A stretch of DNA of 20,499 bases from a virus, in the IMG/VR virus record IMGVR_UViG_3300038701_000820, positions 1 to 20,499 of that record; one strand, written 5' to 3'. Below, in pieces: positions 9,061 through 20,425 of this stretch (position 1 is the stretch's first letter; every line of letters begins with the position of its first letter). Below the pieces are notes generated by a model. That model did not search any database, was not told the DNA's origin, and worked only from the letters and a program-made list of their open reading frames with translations. A program made the position numbers and the translations under genes.

Positions 9061-10899
9061 TTACCTTTCAACAATTATTTCGCCGTTTTGGTCAACAGCT
9101 CTTACGCGCTGATTGTCAAAAGCACGCACAAGAATATCGATTATTTGTTCCTCGGCACCTTCCGCGAATATATCTCCATTAAAAATAACCGTGCTTTGTG
9201 GGGTTTGTTGTTGCTGAGATACATTTTCTAATTGTTCTACACCAAAACTAGTTGGCACGCTCACGTCAGAAATAGACGGCGGTTCTGCTGCTGAACTAAC
9301 AGAAGGAGTCCCACCACCACCGCCACCATATTTCTGCGATTGAAGTGCGCGAACTTGCTTAAAGCCATTTGCCGCCGCCCATGCGACAGCCGGGATTGCT
9401 TTTGGCCAACCGAGTTTCACGCCGGCGGCAATACCTTGATAGGTACTAATTAAAGCGCTAGATATGCCAGCTATTTTTGAAGCTTTAAACATCTTCTTAG
9501 AGCCGGCAGAAAATATTTTTAGAATCTCGCCCGCCTCGCCAAGCGCAATACCTACACGACCAATAGCGGCTGACTTTTTAAATCTAGTGAAGAGAGATTC
9601 AAAATATTTTTGGTTTTTAAACCTGCGCTGATAATGTCCAAGCTCTAACTGTTCAAAATGATTATTTATATCGCGTTGTTTATCGATTTTGTCAGATTCA
9701 CCGTCCTTCGTTCCGTCGTCACCTATTAGATTTCCTAGCAACCCCTCGCGCTCAGAGGCAATTGTGCGCGCCTCAACTTCAAACTTATCCAGTGTCTGAT
9801 TTAGGTAGGCTCTGATTTTTTCGCCAGGTAGAGGAGCCATAGCCGCATCGCTCAATTCTTCACGTAACGAGCTTGTAGTTTGATTTATTGAGTCCTTAAA
9901 CTGATTTACTTTGTTTATTGCCTCAATATCAAAACCTAGTTTTTTTGCTAAGCCTCCACCCAAGCGAGCAGGGAGAGTAATAAGTTCAACAGTTTCATTA
10001 AATACTTCCGCCACCATTTGTCTGACGGTTAAGAAAACAACCTTTAAGCCGTGAACTGCGTCAGCCGCAAAGCCAATACCAGTGACAATTGTTCTTGAAA
10101 GTTTTTGCGAAACGGTTCCAAGCCCGCCAGCGTTCGCCGCGTTCTCTAAAAATAGATCAGCCATAGCCCCGAGAATCGGCGCGGTTTCTACAGCAATCCT
10201 TCGACCAAAAGCCCCTGAGCTTTTGCCAACTTTTGTGAATGCATCATTCGCAAGCTCCACTTTTGCCACATCAACGGAAGAAAGCGAAAGCCCCAACCCT
10301 TCAACTTCTTTTGCTGCGTTTCTTAATCCTTCTTCGCCCATAGCCAACGTGTTTACAAGCGCAACACCTTCACTATCGAATAATTTCATCGCTAGCCTGA
10401 CACGATCGCCTTGCGACGAAACGCCTTCCATTGCTTTCGATATCATTATCATTTGTTGGTCTGGGCGAAGCGATGCTAAATACTCAGCGCTTAAGCCTAG
10501 CTCTTTTATCGCGTCCCTTGCTTCGCCGGTTCCCTTTGCGGCCTCGGCAACCCTTCGCGTCATCCTTTGTACAGCCATATCCATTGTGTTTATAGATACA
10601 CCGGATAACTCGCCCGCGTGCCTTAACCCCTGCAAAGCATCAACGGTAACGCCGAGCTTTGCGGACTGCTTCGCAAGTTTATCTATCCCGTCAATGTGCG
10701 CCGTGTAAAAGCCTTTGATTTTATGAGCCGCAAACAATCCTATAAACGCCTTCACCACTCCATTTACCGAACCAATTGACTTCTTGTATCTTTTCTCCCA
10801 TAACTTCGAACGTTTTTCGGCTGCATCAAACCCTTTCTGTAGTTTCTCGGTCTGAGTCTCCATTACTATCGATAGTTTGGCTAACTCGTTTTGTGACAT
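9061..10899 (-). CDS. Tail tape measure protein
   Basis: Sets tail length and occupies the tail tube lumen until DNA ejection. It has 612 residues and lies directly after the tail-chaperone pair, its fixed position in siphophages. The N-terminal 60 residues are charged and helical, followed by long amphipathic Ala/Lys/Glu helices (about 80-420) with a hydrophobic segment around 265-310. A C-terminal block (about 470-525) has the typical ISSALISTYQGIAAG and AIPAVAWAAANGFKQVRAL motifs of tape-measure C-termini, then a Gly6 run and an acidic end. At roughly 0.15 nm per residue, this length would suggest a tail near 90 nm. The ATG at 10899 lies inside the GT frame (74-bp overlap); ATG 10863 is an alternative start. 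Confidence 0.88.
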   Translation of the reverse strand: MSQNELAKLSIVMETQTEKLQKGFDAAEKRSKLWEKRYKKSIGSVNGVVKAFIGLFAAHKIKGFYTAHIDGIDKLAKQSAKLGVTVDALQGLRHAGELSGVSINTMDMAVQRMTRRVAEAAKGTGEARDAIKELGLSAEYLASLRPDQQMIMISKAMEGVSSQGDRVRLAMKLFDSEGVALVNTLAMGEEGLRNAAKEVEGLGLSLSSVDVAKVELANDAFTKVGKSSGAFGRRIAVETAPILGAMADLFLENAANAGGLGTVSQKLSRTIVTGIGFAADAVHGLKVVFLTVRQMVAEVFNETVELITLPARLGGGLAKKLGFDIEAINKVNQFKDSINQTTSSLREELSDAAMAPLPGEKIRAYLNQTLDKFEVEARTIASEREGLLGNLIGDDGTKDGESDKIDKQRDINNHFEQLELGHYQRRFKNQKYFESLFTRFKKSAAIGRVGIALGEAGEILKIFSAGSKKMFKASKIAGISSALISTYQGIAAGVKLGWPKAIPAVAWAAANGFKQVRALQSQKYGGGGGGTPSVSSAAEPPSISDVSVPTSFGVEQLENVSQQQQTPQSTVIFNGDIFAEGAEEQIIDILVRAFDNQRVRAVDQNGEIIVER

Positions 10900-11568
10900 T
10901 ACAATTTTGTCCCACTAGTTGATCAAGGTGCGCCGCAAATGCGCGGGCATTTTGGTTTGATGTTTTTTTGCGAGGATAAAGAAAGTCTTTCGTCTTTGCT
11001 TTTGCCTTAGATTTCGTAGCGCCCATTGCGTAGAGCGCGGACATAACGCCGTTCGATATCGTGGCTTGAGTGTTGGCGTGGTGCCAATTATCCCGCTTGG
11101 TTCCAAACGGTTCTAACTGATAAAAGGATTTTAATAACGAGTAATCGCTCGCGGGCATTTCCCGCAACTCATGGGGCAAGCGACCAGTAAAACCTACTAG
11201 CTCACAAAAAAACTCTAGCTCTGGTCGCTCTCGGATTTTTTTTCGGTTTCTTCCTGCGCCTCTTCGCTTAACCCCGAAAGGGTCATAATTTGCTTTGATA
11301 AAAAAGCCAGGCACCCAGGGCCAACGGTTGCGGCTAGATCGCCGGGATTGTCTCGCAGGAAATCTTCACAACCATGCGAAACGATCCAAGCCGCCGCAAC
11401 AACATCATTTGATTCGTTTTCTTCAACGTATCTTGCTAGCGCCTGCATTTCGGACGTTGAAAGCTCAACAATGTTGAACTTTTCGCTGTTGTACTCAACT
11501 TTTTTACGCTGAAATGTATTCGACTTGCGTCGCATTCTTCGAGGTCGTAGATAAGTGAAAATACTCAT
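10826..11568 (-). CDS. Tail assembly chaperone GT (-1 frameshift product)
   Basis: The long form of the tail chaperone, produced when ribosomes slip back one base on the A-run at 11243-11236. The zero frame (G) supplies the first part, ending ETEKK. After the slip, translation continues IRERPELEFF in the frame that ends at 10826, adding 136 residues. This T part is basic, with a Lys-rich segment KSKAKAKTKD, and in lambda-type phages binds the tape measure while G binds the major tail protein. The T frame has no good start of its own with a ribosome binding site. It overlaps the tape-measure start by 74 bp. The frameshift is inferred from frame arrangement, slippery heptamer and conserved phage genetics. 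Confidence 0.75.
11215..11568 (-). CDS. Tail assembly chaperone G
   Basis: The short tail chaperone, about 117 residues, directly after the major tail protein as in lambda (V-G-T-H order). The core is mainly helical (STSEMQALARYVEENE and following) and the end is acidic (EEAQEETEKKSESDQS), typical of G-type proteins. The frame is open from 11604, but that start overlaps the major-tail gene; ATG 11568, 4 bp after the tail-protein stop, fits better, though its ribosome binding site is poor. ATG 11535 is possible. Most ribosomes should end at the TAG at 11215, giving much more G than GT. Confidence 0.72.
   Translation of the reverse strand: MSIFTYLRPRRMRRKSNTFQRKKVEYNSEKFNIVELSTSEMQALARYVEENESNDVVAAAWIVSHGCEDFLRDNPGDLAATVGPGCLAFLSKQIMTLSGLSEEAQEETEKKSESDQS
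11236..11243 (-). other. Programmed -1 frameshift slippery site (A8)
   Basis: On the minus strand the G frame reads GAA AAA AAA TCC, which contains the heptamer A AAA AAA (11242-11236), an efficient -1 slippery sequence in bacteria. Slipping one base gives AAA then ATC CGA, which is exactly the frame of the T extension. The G stop lies 21 bases further on. I did not identify a clear downstream stimulatory hairpin by eye. Confidence 0.75.
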
Positions 11569-11572
11569 ATTT

Positions 11573-12022
11573 TTAGGTGACCGCCTGCGTTGGTAGTGTT
11601 GCATTTATTTTCAAATTGAACGTAACCATGTCCTTCGCGTTTTCATCAGAAGAGGATGAAGGCTCGTAAGGGGCGCTTCTAACAAGAACACTAAATTGCC
11701 AGGTTTCGGTGCGCGTTCCGTCCGTCCAAACATATTGAACGTTAACCCCCGCGTTGTCCCCAATAGCGGCAATTAGTCTTGCCTGAGCGGTTGCGGTCGG
11801 CAAGTAATCGCACTTCAATGGAAGTTCCTGGCCATCAATCATTCGATTAAATGCCCATTTTTTCATAGCGCTAGTGTTTGCGTGATTAATGTCAGTGTCA
11901 TCTCGCAAAGTTCGATCAAGCGGGTTAAATTCTGGGAAATCGAAAAGACCTTCTAACGGATCAAAATTTTCTGGGTCTCCGCTGTCGCCAACGTTAAAAA
12001 GCCAAGCTTGTTGTGTAGCCAT
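11573..12022 (-). CDS. Major tail (tube) protein
   Basis: A 149-residue protein that would polymerise into the tail tube. It sits between the tail terminator and the G chaperone, the place of the major tail protein in lambda-like phages. The sequence is beta-rich: an N-terminal acidic loop region with DPLEGLFDFPEFNPLDRT, central strands around GVNVQYVWTDGTRTETWQF, a Ser-rich loop (SSSSDE) and a C-terminal strand MVTFNLKINATLP that matches the end of tube folds. It starts at ATG 12022 with GAGG upstream. No Ig-like C-terminal extension is present, so it is a minimal tube protein. Position and fold pattern support the call; the family is not certain. Confidence 0.8.
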   Translation of the reverse strand: MATQQAWLFNVGDSGDPENFDPLEGLFDFPEFNPLDRTLRDDTDINHANTSAMKKWAFNRMIDGQELPLKCDYLPTATAQARLIAAIGDNAGVNVQYVWTDGTRTETWQFSVLVRSAPYEPSSSSDENAKDMVTFNLKINATLPTQAVT

Positions 12023-14307: not shown

Positions 14308-15588
14308 TTAGGCTGCGTCGCCAAGCTCAATGTATGAGCTTAATGAGTTAGCCGCTTTTTGTGGAGCGGTTCCCTTATTTGGTAGTACCGGGGTGCTCAG
14401 GTAAGGAATGCCACCCGCTCGAAGCGTCCATTTAAATGCTTGAACGTCGTAATCAAACAAAAGATGCGCCGAAACTGACGACTTGATGCCGCCTTTATGT
14501 GGCATGTAGTAGCCTTTCGGATCAACGAACTTAACATCACCTTGATCGCCCAGATATTCACAATTTTCTGAGAAGTAAACAGGACGCCCAAGTAATGTGC
14601 CGCCAGGCGCAGACGCAAGGCCGTTAGGTGCTAGATATACGGGCTGATTGCCAACGGTTAATGTCATCAACTTGGGAAGCACCGAGCGATTCACAAGCCA
14701 AATCGATCCCATTGGGTTTGTAGATCGTGAAAACATTGAAACCAATGCTTCGGCGTCGATTTGGTTGGCTGTAGCTCGAGCTACTGCTACCGCAACGCCC
14801 GATTCTTTAAAGCCAAGCATTTTCCCAACGCCGCTACCTTCAAAGATGCCTTGGTTAAGCTTCCAGTTAATCGCTTGGTTTGACTTGGTAGTTAAGCGAG
14901 AATTTAAACGCGGGGCGTCTTCTAGTAATTCCTCGGTTAACTCTGCGAAAGCATGAACCTTGTGAAGTTTTACCGTTTCGCCTTTTGTTTCCATTTTTGA
15001 GCGAACCATTTGCCCAGCTTCAGTGCCCCAATACGCTTGAATACCCAAGCCGCCCCAAGGGGTCGATTCGTCGCGCAACACTTGAACGGCATTACTTGAA
15101 GTCATTTCAGCATCAACCAAAGGCAACATATTTAAATCATTGGTTTCAACTTCCAACACTTCCATTTTTAGTGCTGGAGGCACATGCAATCCGTCATTGC
15201 TTCCGCCTTCTTTGTGCAGTACATCAGACGGCGCACCTAAGAATTTCAAGCGGTCATCAACAATAGCACCATTTGAAGGGTGCGCGGCATGAACTGCCAG
15301 TGCAAAATCAGCGAAATTTTCAAACCCGCCGCGTGCTTCTTCTTCGTGATTTTTTGCTTTTGCTGGCATCGTTGGCGCTGTTTGTCGACCTTGTGGCTGA
15401 AAGTCTTCGTTCATCGCTTCCAGCTTCTCTTTGCGCTTGATCTGCGCATCGATCTTTTTTACTTCAGCTTCAAGCGCGTCGAAATTCTCGGCGGTTTCTG
15501 CGTCCATCGTTTCGGGGTTGTCTTCAGTAATTTGGTGCATTTCTGCAATTTTTGCTTTTTTAAGCGCGATAAGTTCTGCGATAGTCAT
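14308..15588 (-). CDS. HK97-fold major capsid protein
   Basis: Forms the icosahedral head. About 426 residues from ATG 15588, chosen because GGTGAT precedes it; an in-frame GTG at 15597 is the alternative. Residues 1 to about 65 form a charged coiled coil (the delta/scaffold domain), followed by a Gln/Pro-rich linker (PQGRQTAPTMPAK) around which the prohead protease probably cuts. The rest has the HK97 pattern: the ETKGETVKLHKVHAFAELTEELLED E-loop/spine part, a helix with SNQAINWKLNQGIFEGSG, then GKMLGF, the SIWLVNRSVLPKLM strand-helix and the C-terminal LFDYDVQAFKWTLRAGG. It follows the protease and precedes the putative decoration gene. Strong by pattern and order. Confidence 0.93.
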   Translation of the reverse strand: MTIAELIALKKAKIAEMHQITEDNPETMDAETAENFDALEAEVKKIDAQIKRKEKLEAMNEDFQPQGRQTAPTMPAKAKNHEEEARGGFENFADFALAVHAAHPSNGAIVDDRLKFLGAPSDVLHKEGGSNDGLHVPPALKMEVLEVETNDLNMLPLVDAEMTSSNAVQVLRDESTPWGGLGIQAYWGTEAGQMVRSKMETKGETVKLHKVHAFAELTEELLEDAPRLNSRLTTKSNQAINWKLNQGIFEGSGVGKMLGFKESGVAVAVARATANQIDAEALVSMFSRSTNPMGSIWLVNRSVLPKLMTLTVGNQPVYLAPNGLASAPGGTLLGRPVYFSENCEYLGDQGDVKFVDPKGYYMPHKGGIKSSVSAHLLFDYDVQAFKWTLRAGGIPYLSTPVLPNKGTAPQKAANSLSSYIELGDAA

Positions 15589-15667
15589 ATTGATCACCGT
15601 TAAATAGTTTTAAGTTTTTAGGGTTTGGTTTTAAGAGTTCCCGCCTAGCGAGAGAGCGACTTAGCGC

Positions 15668-16501
15668 TTAAAGTGCTGCCAACTTAACGCGAGCTGCACG
15701 AGTGGAACGACCGGGGCGTACATTTGTCTGTATTGCTCCGATCGTTTCCGAAAGGGTTTGTATTCCGTCGATTAATCCGAGGGTTAGAGCTTTATCAGAA
15801 AGAAAAACGCGTCCATCTGCGACGGTTTCTAAATCTTTTCCGCTAATGCCTCGACCTTCTTGCACTTCGTTTAAAAATGATTTGTAAAGGCCGTCGATAA
15901 TTTCCTGAGTCGCTGCTATTTGCTGATCAGTTACCGGCGTACCGTCTAAGCCTGCGCTTTTATGTGGGCCGGTATCTACCGGTATAACTTTCACGCCCAT
16001 TTCTTCGTAATACTTGCTCGAATCAATCATCACAGTGCGCACACCGATTGAGCCTATAAGATCGTCGCGAGCGGCATAAATCGCTGAGGCATTAGCGGCA
16101 ACGTAATAGCCAGCACTAGCGAGTAGGCCATCAACTTGAACCGTGATAGGTTTAATTGCGTTAACACGTTTAACCGTTTGCGCTAGCTCGTTAAGCCCTT
16201 CAACGCTTCCGCCTGGCGTATCCATTACCCACACAATTGATTCGATTTCTTCGTCATTAGCTGCGGCAATCAAAGCCTCTTGTGCGTCTCGTGTGCCTGC
16301 AATGCCATAGCGAGCCATCCAGCCCGCACGCTTAATCATTGGCCCGACGGTGCTTATTACCGCCGTTGATCCGTATTTGTTAATGGGCAAGCCTTCGCGG
16401 TCTGCGTCTTCTACAGGCCCGGCCTTAATAGAATTCAATATTAATTCGATCGATGATTGAAAATAGTTTTGGTGAATATTCCAAATAGTGGGCAAAAGCA
16501 T
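15668..16501 (-). CDS. S49-type (SppA-like) prohead protease
   Basis: Processes the capsid scaffold during head maturation. It has 277 residues and is placed between portal and capsid. It carries the S49 signatures: WVMDTPGGSVEG (about 91-102) forming the oxyanion region, the nucleophile Ser129 in GLLASAGYYVAA, and the general-base Lys181 in GPHKSAG. The Ser-Lys spacing of 52 residues equals that of Bacillus subtilis SppA (Ser147/Lys199). No signal peptide is visible, as expected for the phage version acting in the cytoplasm, though the N-terminal 30 residues are moderately hydrophobic. ATG 16501 follows the portal stop by 3 bp, with GGGAG upstream. Confidence 0.9.
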   Translation of the reverse strand: MLLPTIWNIHQNYFQSSIELILNSIKAGPVEDADREGLPINKYGSTAVISTVGPMIKRAGWMARYGIAGTRDAQEALIAAANDEEIESIVWVMDTPGGSVEGLNELAQTVKRVNAIKPITVQVDGLLASAGYYVAANASAIYAARDDLIGSIGVRTVMIDSSKYYEEMGVKVIPVDTGPHKSAGLDGTPVTDQQIAATQEIIDGLYKSFLNEVQEGRGISGKDLETVADGRVFLSDKALTLGLIDGIQTLSETIGAIQTNVRPGRSTRAARVKLAAL

Positions 16502-16504
16502 CTT

Positions 16505-18088
16505 TTAGCACTCCCTTAAGAAGTTTGTAATTTTTGAAAATAGCTTTTCATCTTTGGTGTGCTCCCACGATTTCAAAAGCATTTTGTTTTCATCTTTAAT
16601 GATTGCGTTGTAGAGATCATCGGCACTTTGCGCAGCGTAATCGGAGAAAAACACCTTTAATTTTTCTTCGATTCCTTCGGGATTTTTGCCGAATTCTTCA
16701 AGCGCTAACGCTGCCACGTTTCGGAATTTATCAACGCATCGTTGCGCGTGTGAAACGTACACCCTTGCTATATCTTCCTGACTTGTTTCAATTGAGAACT
16801 TTTTAACTCTTACCAGCTCGGCTTTTGTTAAATCTCTGCACGTTTCCTGTATTAGCGCACCGATTGAGGCGCTTTTTTGCTTGTCGTTTGTCAAAACGCC
16901 GCTTTTCATGCGCTCTAAGGTGGTCATATTGCTAGGAACTACGCGCAAATCACCGTTATTTTCTAGTGCGTCCATGTCTTCGAATTCTCGGATTTCGTCG
17001 ATATCAATCGCACCCATCGCAAAAAGGTCTTTGTAATATTCTTTACGGGCTGCTGAATCACCGCGCAACAAACCCATCACGTTAACTTTCGTGTAATAGT
17101 TAACGCCCTGTTTTCTTAATAGCGTGTGATTCGCTGAGTTTTCCGCACGACTTACATTGGGAACGATGGCATCAGTCACAAAATCTATGTTTTGTGGTTC
17201 GATATTGGCCCATGTCGCTTTGTCTAAAATGGCTAGCTTATGGGGCGGCAATCTAAACCAGCGGCACATATCCAAAATCCCGAAATTAGCCGTTTCAATA
17301 AACTGGGCATCTTTCGCAGAAAAACCGAATTCTTTTACATCAAGGCCACCGTCTAGGTATTCGGTGCCGCGCATTTTGTTTGCGCCTTTGTTTCGGCGGT
17401 TCCATTTGTTTAATAGGTTTTTTACGCCGTCTTTATCTATTTTTGACTTATTTTCTACATTGGTAATTAGAAGCGAAGGCATCGCCCCATTGCCCAAGAA
17501 GCTCGCACCGAACGCATGAGCGCCCATCCCTAGCGAAATAGATTCGCGGGCTTGCTCTAATATTCCTAAACCGATTAAGCCGTCTTTACTGGGGCCGCGT
17601 ATATGCAACATATCGGCAGGCTTAATCGTACTATCTGGAAAACCAGAATTCGAAACCTCGTAATAAATGCGGCCTTTCTGGTCTCGTTGCATTTGTACGC
17701 GGTGCGGTTCGATAGGCCAAAGCGCGATAACTTCGCCTGAACGATTGCGCTCTACTTCTGCGTAGAAGTTGCCAAAGCGCAACACATTGCGCTGCATTAA
17801 TTCTTTAAAGTAAAACGGTGCAAGCTCATCATTCGGGTGCATATAAAGCACGTAATCCAAAGGGTGATCGCTTACAGGAACGCGTTTAGAGCCGCCGCGC
17901 TGGAACACATGCCAAGGCAAATAAGCCACGGTTTCCGTAATGATCCTTTCGCAACACGCATACCCCGAATAACGCGAGGCGGTATCATCATTAACAGCCA
18001 TTCCCGCGACCGGCTTTTGCAAACTGAAAAACGGTTGCTGTATTTGTTGGGGCGCGGTGTTTCGCTTCGCTGAGAAGTCAAAAAACAT
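16505..18088 (-). CDS. Portal protein (HK97 type)
   Basis: Forms the dodecameric gate through which DNA enters the capsid. It has 527 residues. The N-terminal half has the typical clip/stem-domain sequence: YSGYACCERIITETVAYLPWHVF, ELMQRNVLRFGNFYAEVERN, PADMLHIRGPSKDGLIGLG and a long helix ISLGMGAHAFGASFLGNGAMPSL. The region FGILDMCRWFRLPPHKLAILDKAT (about 295-320) is a conserved portal signature. It is longer than many HK97 portals (about 420): residues after about 400 add a helical, charged C-terminal part that probably extends the crown or barrel. AGGA precedes the ATG at 18088, directly after the 50-aa membrane gene. Confidence 0.93.
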   Translation of the reverse strand: MFFDFSAKRNTAPQQIQQPFFSLQKPVAGMAVNDDTASRYSGYACCERIITETVAYLPWHVFQRGGSKRVPVSDHPLDYVLYMHPNDELAPFYFKELMQRNVLRFGNFYAEVERNRSGEVIALWPIEPHRVQMQRDQKGRIYYEVSNSGFPDSTIKPADMLHIRGPSKDGLIGLGILEQARESISLGMGAHAFGASFLGNGAMPSLLITNVENKSKIDKDGVKNLLNKWNRRNKGANKMRGTEYLDGGLDVKEFGFSAKDAQFIETANFGILDMCRWFRLPPHKLAILDKATWANIEPQNIDFVTDAIVPNVSRAENSANHTLLRKQGVNYYTKVNVMGLLRGDSAARKEYYKDLFAMGAIDIDEIREFEDMDALENNGDLRVVPSNMTTLERMKSGVLTNDKQKSASIGALIQETCRDLTKAELVRVKKFSIETSQEDIARVYVSHAQRCVDKFRNVAALALEEFGKNPEGIEEKLKVFFSDYAAQSADDLYNAIIKDENKMLLKSWEHTKDEKLFSKITNFLREC

Positions 18089-18090
18089 TA

Positions 18091-18243
18091 TTAATTATTT
18101 CCTGTTAGTCGGATTAACAAGGCCAACACGATTAAGAAGCCGCCCGCAAACATTAACGAACACGCAAGGCCGTAAGATAAAAACACACCTGCCACGGTCG
18201 CTATAAAGCCAATAATTAATAATATTTCTGGAATATATTTCAC
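18091..18243 (-). CDS. 50-aa protein with two membrane helices
   Basis: A short gene filling the whole gap between the terminase and portal genes. GTG 18243 follows the terminase TAG directly and has AAGGG 7 bp upstream. The 50 residues are almost entirely hydrophobic: helix 1 about 4-22 (PEILLIIGFIATVAGVFL), a short turn with Ser/Tyr/Gly, and helix 2 about 28-44 (CSLMFAGGFLIVLALLI), ending RLTGNN. It is likely an inner-membrane hairpin. Small membrane genes at this spot are seen in some HK97-type phages, but no role is known to me. It could be holin-like by size and two-helix topology, but no endolysin is adjacent, so I do not assign that. Confidence 0.75.
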   Translation of the reverse strand: MKYIPEILLIIGFIATVAGVFLSYGLACSLMFAGGFLIVLALLIRLTGNN

Positions 18244-19965
18244 CTAGCAACCCTTGTCTTCGTCATCATTTAAATCACTTTCATTGTAAATAGAATCGAA
18301 CTCCTCATCCCCGTCTACCCCCATTGCTAAGGCGTGGGCCATAATAGTCGACACAGCCGGATCGATTTTTTCGGAACACTTCGACTTATCTGGCTTTATG
18401 TCGCCAGCCGGATTTATTGAAGCGACAACGTTGGACATCGCCCAGGAAAGTAACGGGTCGTTGTGCTCTAAGTCTTCCGTTAGAACAATTCGCATCACAT
18501 CTTTCATTGGCGCGGACATACTTTGAAAACCCTGCCCAAACTTCACCATTTCTACACCTTCGTCGATTAGATCAGTCACTAACTGAGAAGAATTCCAACG
18601 GTCAAAGGCGATACCTTTCACGTCAAACCTTTCACAAACATTTAAAATATCTTTGATAATAAAATCGTAATCTACGACCTCACCAGACAGTACCACCAAA
18701 TGCCCGCTTTCCTTAAAAGCCTCCAAAGTTTTATCACCATCTGCCAACCTTCGTTCCATCGCCGCCTGAGGTAGGTAGCCACGTTGAAAAAAACGGCGTT
18801 TTTTACCAGATGGAAAACAAAAACAAAGGCTGACAATATCTTCCGAAAAAGCCAAATCAAGTCCACCGAAACACTCCGCGCCTTCTAAGCCCGTGCATTC
18901 GCTGTAAGAATCAAAAATGGCAGTTGAATCATATTCAACTTGACACGCGTCCCATTTTTCCATCCTCATCCAAGCGCTTTCGGAATATGTCCATACATTG
19001 CAACGTTTCGTAAGAAACTCGACCTTTGCTGTAGGCATTTCCTTTGCTTCACGAAACTGTTCCCGCATATCTTCCAACGAAGTCGAAACCCCTAAGTTAG
19101 GATTAGCTTTTATCCACTCGTCTTCATTGTCCCAGTCTTCTAAATTATCCAATGTAAATATAATTGCAAAAAGCGAATCATCCTCAACGACACGTTGAAG
19201 CACTTTAATTGCGTATTGACGCCGGTTATATGCAAAACATTTTCGATCAAAACCTGCAGTTGTTATTCCTCTCAATATAGGCTGCGACCTCGACCCCATC
19301 GAACTACGCAACACATCCCATACCGACGAATCCTTATGCGCGTGCATTTCGTCAACTATTCCGGCGTGAGTGTTAAACCCATCCATAGTTGAAGAATCCT
19401 TAGAAAGTCGGAGCAAAACACTTGTTCCGCTTGAAATCTTATTATTGAACGCTTTTGCCCTTGACCTTAGCACCGGGCTCATACGAACCATTTGGGCCGA
19501 TGCATCAAAAATTTCTTTTGTTTGCTCCCTTTTGGTGGCCGCGATATAAACTTGCGCGGCATTCTCTTTATCTGCGATTAAGTAATAATTAGCTGCGGCT
19601 GCTTTACCTGTTGATTTTCCTTGTTTCCTGCCAATTTCTTCATGTGTAATTTTGAAGCGTCTTCGCTTATTCTCACGCATCCAACCATGCACATTGGCCT
19701 CTATAAAGCATTGCCAGGGTGAAAGAATTAGCGGCTGGCCTGCGAAATCCCCAATATAGTGACGGCAGTATTTATAGACAAATCGAAAGTAACGAGCCGC
19801 CGCATTTTCATCAAAATATAAACCGCGTTTTGGCCCCTGCTCTAAATCATCGAACCAACGTTCTACAGCAAGCTTTACGTATTCACAGGCAATCTGCTCA
19901 CCTGACCGTACTTGTTTAGCGTAATTGGCTGCCCGGTCTAGCCATTCGCTGCCAACATCACCCAT
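18244..19965 (-). CDS. terL: Terminase large subunit
   Basis: Packaging motor ATPase and nuclease, 573 residues. The ATPase domain has the Walker A variant GRKQGKST (112-119), a Walker B of hydrophobic residues then DE (about 201-206, AGIVDEMHAH) and a coupling-type region (ITTAGFD, about 234-240). The nuclease domain starts near GGLDLAFSEDIVS (368-379) with acidic D370 as a metal ligand candidate, and a second acidic site in IAFDRWNSS and the late SEKIDPAVSTIMAHALAM helix. This is the Terminase_1 / HK97 gp2-like type. The ATG at 19965 overlaps the TerS end by 8 bp. The TAG at 18246-18244 is followed at once by the GTG of the 50-aa gene. Confidence 0.94.
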   Translation of the reverse strand: MGDVGSEWLDRAANYAKQVRSGEQIACEYVKLAVERWFDDLEQGPKRGLYFDENAAARYFRFVYKYCRHYIGDFAGQPLILSPWQCFIEANVHGWMRENKRRRFKITHEEIGRKQGKSTGKAAAANYYLIADKENAAQVYIAATKREQTKEIFDASAQMVRMSPVLRSRAKAFNNKISSGTSVLLRLSKDSSTMDGFNTHAGIVDEMHAHKDSSVWDVLRSSMGSRSQPILRGITTAGFDRKCFAYNRRQYAIKVLQRVVEDDSLFAIIFTLDNLEDWDNEDEWIKANPNLGVSTSLEDMREQFREAKEMPTAKVEFLTKRCNVWTYSESAWMRMEKWDACQVEYDSTAIFDSYSECTGLEGAECFGGLDLAFSEDIVSLCFCFPSGKKRRFFQRGYLPQAAMERRLADGDKTLEAFKESGHLVVLSGEVVDYDFIIKDILNVCERFDVKGIAFDRWNSSQLVTDLIDEGVEMVKFGQGFQSMSAPMKDVMRIVLTEDLEHNDPLLSWAMSNVVASINPAGDIKPDKSKCSEKIDPAVSTIMAHALAMGVDGDEEFDSIYNESDLNDDEDKGC

Positions 19966-20425
19966 CTAAATCTAAAGACCCTTGGTTTGGATTTTCAATG
20001 CGTAAAGATTGCCGTGAATGGGGCGTTAGATTTAGTTTCGATTCAAGTTTATGAAGGCGTGAGGCATGTCGCTCACGAGCCACAGCCCAGGGTGATAGCT
20101 GGAAATACCCAGATGGCGTTTTCTGAAATTCGCCATTCTCCTGAACCTCTCTTTGAGCCTTCACATACCAAGCATATGTTTCGCAATAAACGCGAAACAC
20201 ACTTAAATCTACCGAACTAATTAGCCCTGCTTTTTTTAAGCGCGAACCAATATAAACCCAATGGTTTTTTGCGATGAGATCGAGTTCGCCCGGCATTTTC
20301 GGTAACTCAGCGTCAAGACCTTGAAAAAGCTCGTTGGCTTTTTCTTCCACGCTTTTTATATTACCTTTGTGCGAGTCTAGACCCACTACAGCATCGGTAA
20401 AAACGCCATAATCTCTACTAGACAT
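19958..20425 (-). CDS. terS: Terminase small subunit (P27-like)
   Basis: Recognises the packaging start and delivers DNA to TerL. It has 155 residues. The middle part follows the P27-family layout: a helix AKNHWVYIGSRLKKAGLISSVDLSVFRVYCETYAWYVKAQ-like stretch (about 52-91), a Gly-containing turn, SPWAVARERHASRLHKLESKL (about 111-131) and the ending LNLTPHSRQSLRI, where NLTPxSR is the family hallmark. It begins the late operon in the window. GGAGAA lies 7 bp upstream of ATG 20425. No DNA-binding helix-turn-helix is obvious by eye in the first 40 residues, but such a fold is expected. Confidence 0.88.
   Translation of the reverse strand: MSSRDYGVFTDAVVGLDSHKGNIKSVEEKANELFQGLDAELPKMPGELDLIAKNHWVYIGSRLKKAGLISSVDLSVFRVYCETYAWYVKAQREVQENGEFQKTPSGYFQLSPWAVARERHASRLHKLESKLNLTPHSRQSLRIENPNQGSLDLDG

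Follow-up and report, generated by a model that had tools for sequence, protein, structure and literature searches.

What does a tiny membrane protein do between the gene for the large terminase subunit (terL) and the portal gene of a phage? The question is raised by the window, the whole stretch of 20,499 nucleotides of viral DNA analyzed here, in which a small open reading frame (ORF) on the minus strand runs from a GTG at 18243 to a stop codon ending at 18091 and encodes VKYIPEILLIIGFIATVAGVFLSYGLACSLMFAGGFLIVLALLIRLTGNN (Table 1). The GTG directly adjoins the stop codon of terL (18246-18244) with zero spacer, and 2 nt (18089-18090) lie between the stop of the small frame and the portal ATG at 18088. 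An ORF of this size is weak evidence by itself because other frames are also open there, one of 51 aa on the minus strand (18095-18250) and one of 49 aa on the plus strand (18057-18206). Hence, the case rests on homology. The best match of the protein is to phrog_7105 (E 1.7e-8 over residues 4-46), followed by weaker matches to phrog_4810 (E 0.0013) and phrog_502 (E 0.0076). A family profile built without the window protein scores it at 34.9 bits, compared with a maximum of 14.7 among 500 shuffles of its own residues. The protein carries G12, G19, and G34, the conserved glycine columns of the family, in two uncharged helices, which AlphaFold2 places at residues 4-24 and 26-48 (36-row alignment; mean pLDDT 89.2). 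The small ORF is thus a real gene for a tiny two-helix membrane protein. This is what the first-pass annotation had proposed from the letters of the window, and phrog_7105 homology, the predicted hairpin, and the leave-one-out score bear it out. Its further statements, that the protein is strongly hydrophobic (mean hydropathy 1.62), that a ribosome binding site precedes the gene (AAGGG, 7 nt before the GTG), and that the frame fills the terL-portal gap, also hold.

Table 1. Features of the window around the small gene.
Feature	Coordinates	Strand	Evidence or remark
50-residue two-helix membrane hairpin protein, GTG start	18091..18243	minus	ORF; phrog_7105 E 1.7e-8; leave-one-out profile 34.9 bits; AF2 hairpin pLDDT 89.2
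AAGGG, Shine-Dalgarno-like, 7 nt before the GTG, within the 3' end of terL	18251..18255	minus	sequence read directly
Terminase large subunit (terL), stop adjoins the small gene	18244..19965	minus	phrog_9 E 3.4e-151; PF20441, PF03354
Portal protein, starts 2 nt past the stop of the small gene	16505..18088	minus	phrog_12 E 4.1e-89; PF04860 E 9e-85
Portal codons 2-20, net charge +1 in the window	18029..18085	minus	stretch whose charge differs with versus without the small gene
Head maturation protease, S49 family	15668..16501	minus	phrog_53 E 7.5e-51; PF01343
Major capsid protein (MCP), HK97 family	14308..15597	minus	phrog_10; PF05065
Terminase small subunit (terS); window end 74 bp past its start	19958..20425	minus	phrog_83 E 4.9e-25; PF05119

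Two further observations concern other parts of the window. The minus-strand ORFs 10826-11314 and 11215-11604, with matches to phrog_337 (tail protein) and phrog_344 (tail assembly chaperone), overlap out of frame and are likely a programmed frameshift pair of the G/GT kind. Near the integrase, a plus-strand ORF (1552-2430; 261-292 aa) encodes a hydrophobic stretch and has no PHROG match at E<=0.01.

Related loci were gathered by TerL, as a set of 11 and two sets that were each the best 80 of more, together with 12 annotated phage regions. With the window and its own locus this gave 185 entries (loci are cited by L numbers), in 170 of which both terL and portal could be placed. The terL-portal gap is shorter than 60 nt in 84 of these 170 loci, 60-420 nt in 70, and longer in 16, and 47 of the 70 intermediate gaps contain an ORF on the same strand for which one or more transmembrane stretches are predicted. 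The automatic choice of gap ORF took a longer, wrong frame for the window, the frame of L173 was left out as doubtful, and later starts were chosen by hand for L022, L091, and L104; the resulting alignment, A3, contains 44 distinct members. At E<0.01, its profile finds a match between terL and portal in 50 loci, a count that includes the weak relative D3 orf3 and a seemingly broken frame in L021, and it has no match elsewhere at E<0.5 in loci with both terL and portal placed. One extra match lies in L029, where the portal was not found. The profile was built mostly from the same sequences that it scored, and it was checked on finds independent of TerL: a whole-genome search with phrog_7105 gave four places in 3 of 194 genomes, of which three match the A3 profile, all between terL and portal, and the fourth (L188) does not. 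Altogether, the gene is present in 50 and absent from 117 of the 167 sampled loci with usable TerL and portal, so that the search of relatives for a two-helix ORF in the same gap, suggested at the outset, finds it in a subset of them. In L124, L126, L127, L132, and L134, and in L079 and L142, the gap is used for other small proteins, one type of 76-79 aa and another of 68-75 aa, in which no membrane stretch is predicted.

The members share more than their position. The columns of G12, G19, and G34 are glycine in 40, 42, and 43 of the 44 sequences, respectively. Lysine or arginine occurs in the C-terminal tail of all 44 members, in the N-terminal tail of 36, in the turn of nine, and in helix 2 of two, with none in helix 1. 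Positively charged ends tend to stay on the cytoplasmic side of the membrane (the positive-inside rule), and this distribution therefore suggests that both ends of the hairpin are cytoplasmic. PHROGs assigns 34 of the 44 members to phrog_502 and 18 to phrog_7105, the latter filed as unknown function and resembling the window protein in both sequence and length. No common family was found in Pfam or NCBIfam, where at most four of the 44 members match any one entry, even at E 0.1; RefSeq gives InterPro entry IPR020297 for the member YmfR. The gene occurs in phages that infect E. coli, Klebsiella, Edwardsiella, Vibrio, Pseudomonas, and Marinobacter. It is also present in contigs whose assignments span several bacterial phyla, some of them metagenome bins that are possibly misassigned. 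A 401-bp query across the gene of an E. coli phage matches 885 of 5426 E. coli genomes, many of the weaker matches covering terL only, and at least 80% of the query is matched in 626. The window gene is therefore a new member of a known, widespread, and uncharacterized family. Other searches added little: 45 pattern matches of the 50-aa protein in viral contigs yielded 0 confirmed members, phrog_502 had no match in whole-genome searches of six entries or of 274 genomes, and the L039 member had none in a phage search. A tblastn match in Rhodococcus phage Weasels2 was set aside, as it lies within a 181-aa protein elsewhere in the genome. The hairpin had no fold match in BFVD at E<=0.001 and no match among PDB sequences below E 0.04, comparisons for which a bare hairpin is uninformative.

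Several well-known phages carry the gene, and a membrane protein in the packaging module is thus not unexpected, contrary to what had been claimed. Among the annotated regions, 11 contain both terL and portal, and in seven of these the gene is found, whole or in part. Carriers are D3 (orf3), Marinobacter phage AS1 (gene 3), a Klebsiella, an Edwardsiella, an E. coli, and a Vibrio phage, and Halomonas phage QHHSV-1 (L021), in which the gene is apparently broken. The annotated 30-aa member of QHHSV-1 (L021:5197-5391) seems to run on in another frame within the same gap, and the break seems to be a frameshift or a sequencing error. The gene is absent from the annotated terL-portal regions of KS9, phiKM1, BgVeeders33, and mEp235, and from HK97, where nothing lies between the two genes. 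SfII_03, ST64B Sb3, and phiKO2 gp3 occupy the same slot under the label "membrane protein," and unannotated members lie between terL and portal in PY54 (L193, gap 2302-2491) and SfIV (2304-2483). In the K-12 prophage e14, ymfR (L185:7550-7732) lies between a chimeric terminase gene and beeE, which we take, from its position, to be a portal remnant. YmfR and SfII_03 of the Shigella phage agree in every letter. These phrog_502 members share the slot, the hydrophobic hairpin pattern, and the conserved glycines with the window protein but have longer C-terminal tails, and the window protein matches their group at no better than the E-value given above. D3 orf3 (phrog_4810) also has the same slot, 54 aa, and two hydrophobic stretches, yet it scores 12.2 bits against a family profile built without it, within the shuffle range. 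It may thus be regarded as a distant relative at best, linked to the window protein and L106 through phrog_4810, which L106 also matches (E 1.9e-4).

The labels that relatives bear in D3, SfII, ST64B, phiKO2, and e14 are hypothetical, membrane, or uncharacterized protein. Several E. coli and Salmonella phage records name the gene "head-tail joining protein W," which is at odds with its hairpin nature. In the open-licence literature that we searched, no study of the function of the hairpin gene was found. A replacement of ymfR in MG1655 is said to be without effect on phenotype or survival (PMC9145139), which says nothing on a phage role because e14 is a cryptic prophage. The gene also appears among the induced e14 genes (PMC10012262) and within listed e14 deletions (PMC11541549, PMC4444293).

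The distribution of the gene points to the head module. Over the 167 loci, the portal tree requires at least 23 changes to explain its presence and absence and the terL tree 29, as against about 43 with shuffled labels; 25 bootstraps per tree gave 22-25 and 28-34 changes, respectively. When the alignments were split, median changes were 23 and 24 for the portal halves and 33, 33, and 30 for the terL thirds, so the signal is flat across the portal and poorer throughout terL. In 141 loci to which the MCP could be added, the medians were 20 for MCP, 20 for portal, and 27 for terL. The MCP is thus as good a guide to presence as the portal, which indicates a linkage to the head module and not to the portal alone. 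Nearest neighbors tell the same: among 139 dereplicated loci, the closest portal predicts the state of the gene in 114 and the closest TerL in 103, and where the two disagree (39 loci) the portal is right in 25 and TerL in 14. The window itself is an example. Among the matches listed, its closest TerL (L105, 62%) comes with a different portal and no gene, whereas its four closest portals all come with the gene. Likewise, the TerL of L187 is 86.5% identical to that of L107, but L187 has a different portal together with the gene, which L107 lacks. Finally, clear members occur in three of the 16 long-gap loci, L027 (468 nt), L033 (2944 nt), and L051 (4043 nt), and all three adjoin the portal. A sub-threshold candidate in L112 (E 0.57) lies near terL, about 2 kb from the portal, and would, if real, break this pattern. 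Presence therefore follows portal and capsid phylogeny better than terL, which fits the idea of the first-pass annotation that the protein anchors head assembly to the membrane; neutral recombination inside the more conserved terL could, on the other hand, yield the same linkage without any function.

A second association, an unexpected one, concerns the portal itself. While seeking a substitute for the gene, we noticed that the portals of phages without it begin with a basic segment. In a first count of independent pairs, the charge was lower in carriers in 17 of 21 and higher in four. A strict rule on start codons left 125 of the 167 portals usable (49 with the gene, 76 without), in which the mean net charge of residues 2-20 was +0.29 with the gene and +2.36 without; carriers were lower in 18 of 20 pairs, higher in one, and tied in one, and pairs showed no comparable trend at residues 21-40 and 41-60. 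In an unpaired comparison, residues 21-40 (p 0.009, opposite sign) and 81-100 (p 0.0004) also differ, and for this reason we trust the paired counts only. The prediction was then fixed beforehand and new loci were collected via portal alignment. Of 79 new loci, 67 were usable, ten being dropped for a gap >60 nt and two for want of terL or portal. Their mean charge at residues 2-20 was -0.91 with the gene (11 loci) and +1.57 without (56 loci, many of them plainly of one lineage). In the combined set of 189 portals, from which three new loci with identical portals were excluded, carriers had the lower charge in 23 of the 25 independent pairs and the higher charge in none, the other two being ties. 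These 25 pairs include pairs of the first sample; the 12 pairs with a new member gave ten lower and two ties, and the four wholly new pairs were all lower. Among 19 further 19-residue portal segments taken as a control, the most one-sided were 14 lower against 4 higher and 5 lower against 15 higher. Omitting residues 2 and 3 left 21 pairs lower, one higher, and three tied, and in the first sample the difference persists within each of the two commonest overlaps. Carriage of the gene is thus associated with a less cationic portal N-terminus, a contrast unique to that segment among those tiled, with counter-examples in HK97 (gene absent, net charge 0 at residues 2-20) and D3 (gene present, +3).

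Other differences in the portal did not stand. Carriers more often have a hydrophobic residue at portal position 2, but this was rejected because an ATGA overlap dictates the first nucleotide of the codon there, and position 3 shows no difference. The portal N-terminus is shorter in carriers in ten pairs, longer in six, and tied in nine, from which we make no claim. A transmembrane helix fused to the portals of phages without the gene was also considered and discarded: hydropathy maxima exceed 1.6 in 42 of 117 portals without the gene and in nine of 50 with it (medians 1.46 and 1.37), and nowhere is there a clear fusion.

Taken together, the linkage to portal and capsid genes, the cationic tails, and the less charged portal N-terminus make a membrane dock or chaperone for the portal the best reading, to which we give a probability of roughly 0.45. 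The hairpin would be a product of the head-assembly operon, synthesized after TerL and before the portal, and would sit in the inner membrane with both ends in the cytoplasm. There, it would most likely bind newly made portal subunits, probably via the portal N-terminus, and retain or chaperone them at the membrane during formation of the portal ring and the onset of prohead assembly. Membrane insertion, this topology, the contact with the portal, and the chaperone or anchor role are what we infer from these data. The model is T4, whose portal is reported to form on the inner membrane with the help of the phage chaperone gp40 and host YidC (PMC9958956, PMC9026906, PMC4493910). The likeness to gp40 lies in the proposed role only. 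T4 falls outside the HK97-like siphophages, and its gp40 exceeds the hairpin in size. A recent D3 study may also be relevant. In E. coli carrying the cloned D3 portal, protease, and MCP genes, the study saw no sign of portal being produced or incorporated, which its authors leave unexplained, and D3 shells formed without any portal (PMC12749128, 2025). If orf3 was missing from the plasmids, its absence could be why the recombinant portal was not found, which we offer as a lead and not as evidence of cause. The absence of the gene from 117 of the 167 loci and from HK97 shows that HK97-type heads do not generally need the hairpin. Moreover, because MCP and portal are equally good indicators of presence, the hairpin may have some other head protein as its partner.

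The protein could instead be a moron-type product, that is, a small late membrane protein that alters the membrane to the detriment of the host or of competing phages, as in superinfection exclusion, and is merely located in the head operon. PHROGs files phrog_502, which 34 of the 44 members match, as "membrane protein" in its moron category, and the patchy presence of the gene (50 of 167 loci) would suit such a role. A moron typically brings its own promoter and is found at varying positions. The hairpin gene, however, keeps to one interval, overlaps or abuts both neighbors in many loci, and follows the portal and MCP trees, and its association with the portal N-terminus would be left unexplained. 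We therefore consider a moron unlikely. Somewhat less probable still is a virion component, in which the hairpin would reside in the portal vertex and help DNA into the inner membrane of the next host. A compact membrane hairpin linked to the head module is compatible with this, but the gene precedes the portal and lies away from tail or ejection genes.

Selection on the peptide bears on a further alternative. Of 30 member pairs with at least 50% protein identity, which are not independent of each other, dN/dS could be computed for 26. The ratio was 0.12-0.56 in 25 of them, and 1.41 in the remaining pair on the basis of five differences. The substitution bias that had been proposed as a check is thus found in relatives, with dN/dS <0.6 in 25 of 26 pairs; the gene of the window, with <50% identity to every other member, lies outside this set. 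The relatives of the window gene are therefore under purifying selection. A purely translational device, in which the ORF mainly links translation of the portal to that of terL, or holds back early portal production, while the peptide matters little, would agree with a gene that abuts or overlaps its neighbors in the window and many relatives, but is very unlikely given that the conserved glycines (40, 42, and 43 of 44), charged tails, and low dN/dS indicate that the peptide matters and that the terL-portal spacing is <60 nt in 84 of 170 loci.

A holin or pinholin-like lysis protein, also put forward in the first-pass annotation, appears similarly improbable. The hairpin does share size and shape with small two-helix holins and pinholins, and it bears a sub-threshold likeness to Pfam Phage_holin_5_2 (E 0.024; 15.3 bits, short of the gathering score of 29.2); no holin family in Pfam matched above its cut-off. 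In addition, the DNA between terL and the hairpin gene in L033 encodes a glycosyl hydrolase 25 protein (PF01183, E 4.8e-25), and some Agrobacterium RcGTA-like clusters are described as having a lysozyme gene between terL and portal (PMC11409702). Lysis genes can thus enter this interval. The L033 gene (L033:10726-11736) also has an SH3 domain (PF01183, PF08239). In the window, however, the hairpin gene is flanked by terL and portal and lies outside any lysis cassette, and terL and portal are also its neighbors in the seven annotated regions and in SfII, ST64B, and phiKO2. The carriers ST64B and Klebsiella phage VIPKPNMC05 have separate annotated holin and endolysin genes, and SfIV, whose family match is unannotated, is reported to have holin, lysin, Rz, and Rz1 (PMC3851460), which leaves the holin-like idea weak. 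The lack of a visible lysis gene had been cited in its favor. None is indeed seen in the window, but this has an explanation: on the circular map, the lysis genes of ST64B, VIPKPNMC05, and AS1 lie upstream of terS, and the window is a fragment that stops 74 bp upstream of terS and lacks that region.

If the hairpin is a docking factor, the charge of the portal N-terminus suggests an extension that we regard as tentative and rather doubtful. HK97-type phages may have two interchangeable routes from portal to membrane, either a cationic amphipathic N-terminus on the portal or a separate hairpin. Where the hairpin is present, its cationic tails would take over the membrane job and the portal N-terminus would lose its charge. 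Should this be true, the gene would be a sign, across much of the HK97 lineage, that heads nucleate at the membrane. Membrane-based head initiation has been reported for T4 and for the giant phage SPN3US, and a portal-docking role of the hairpin would extend it to the HK97 capsid lineage.
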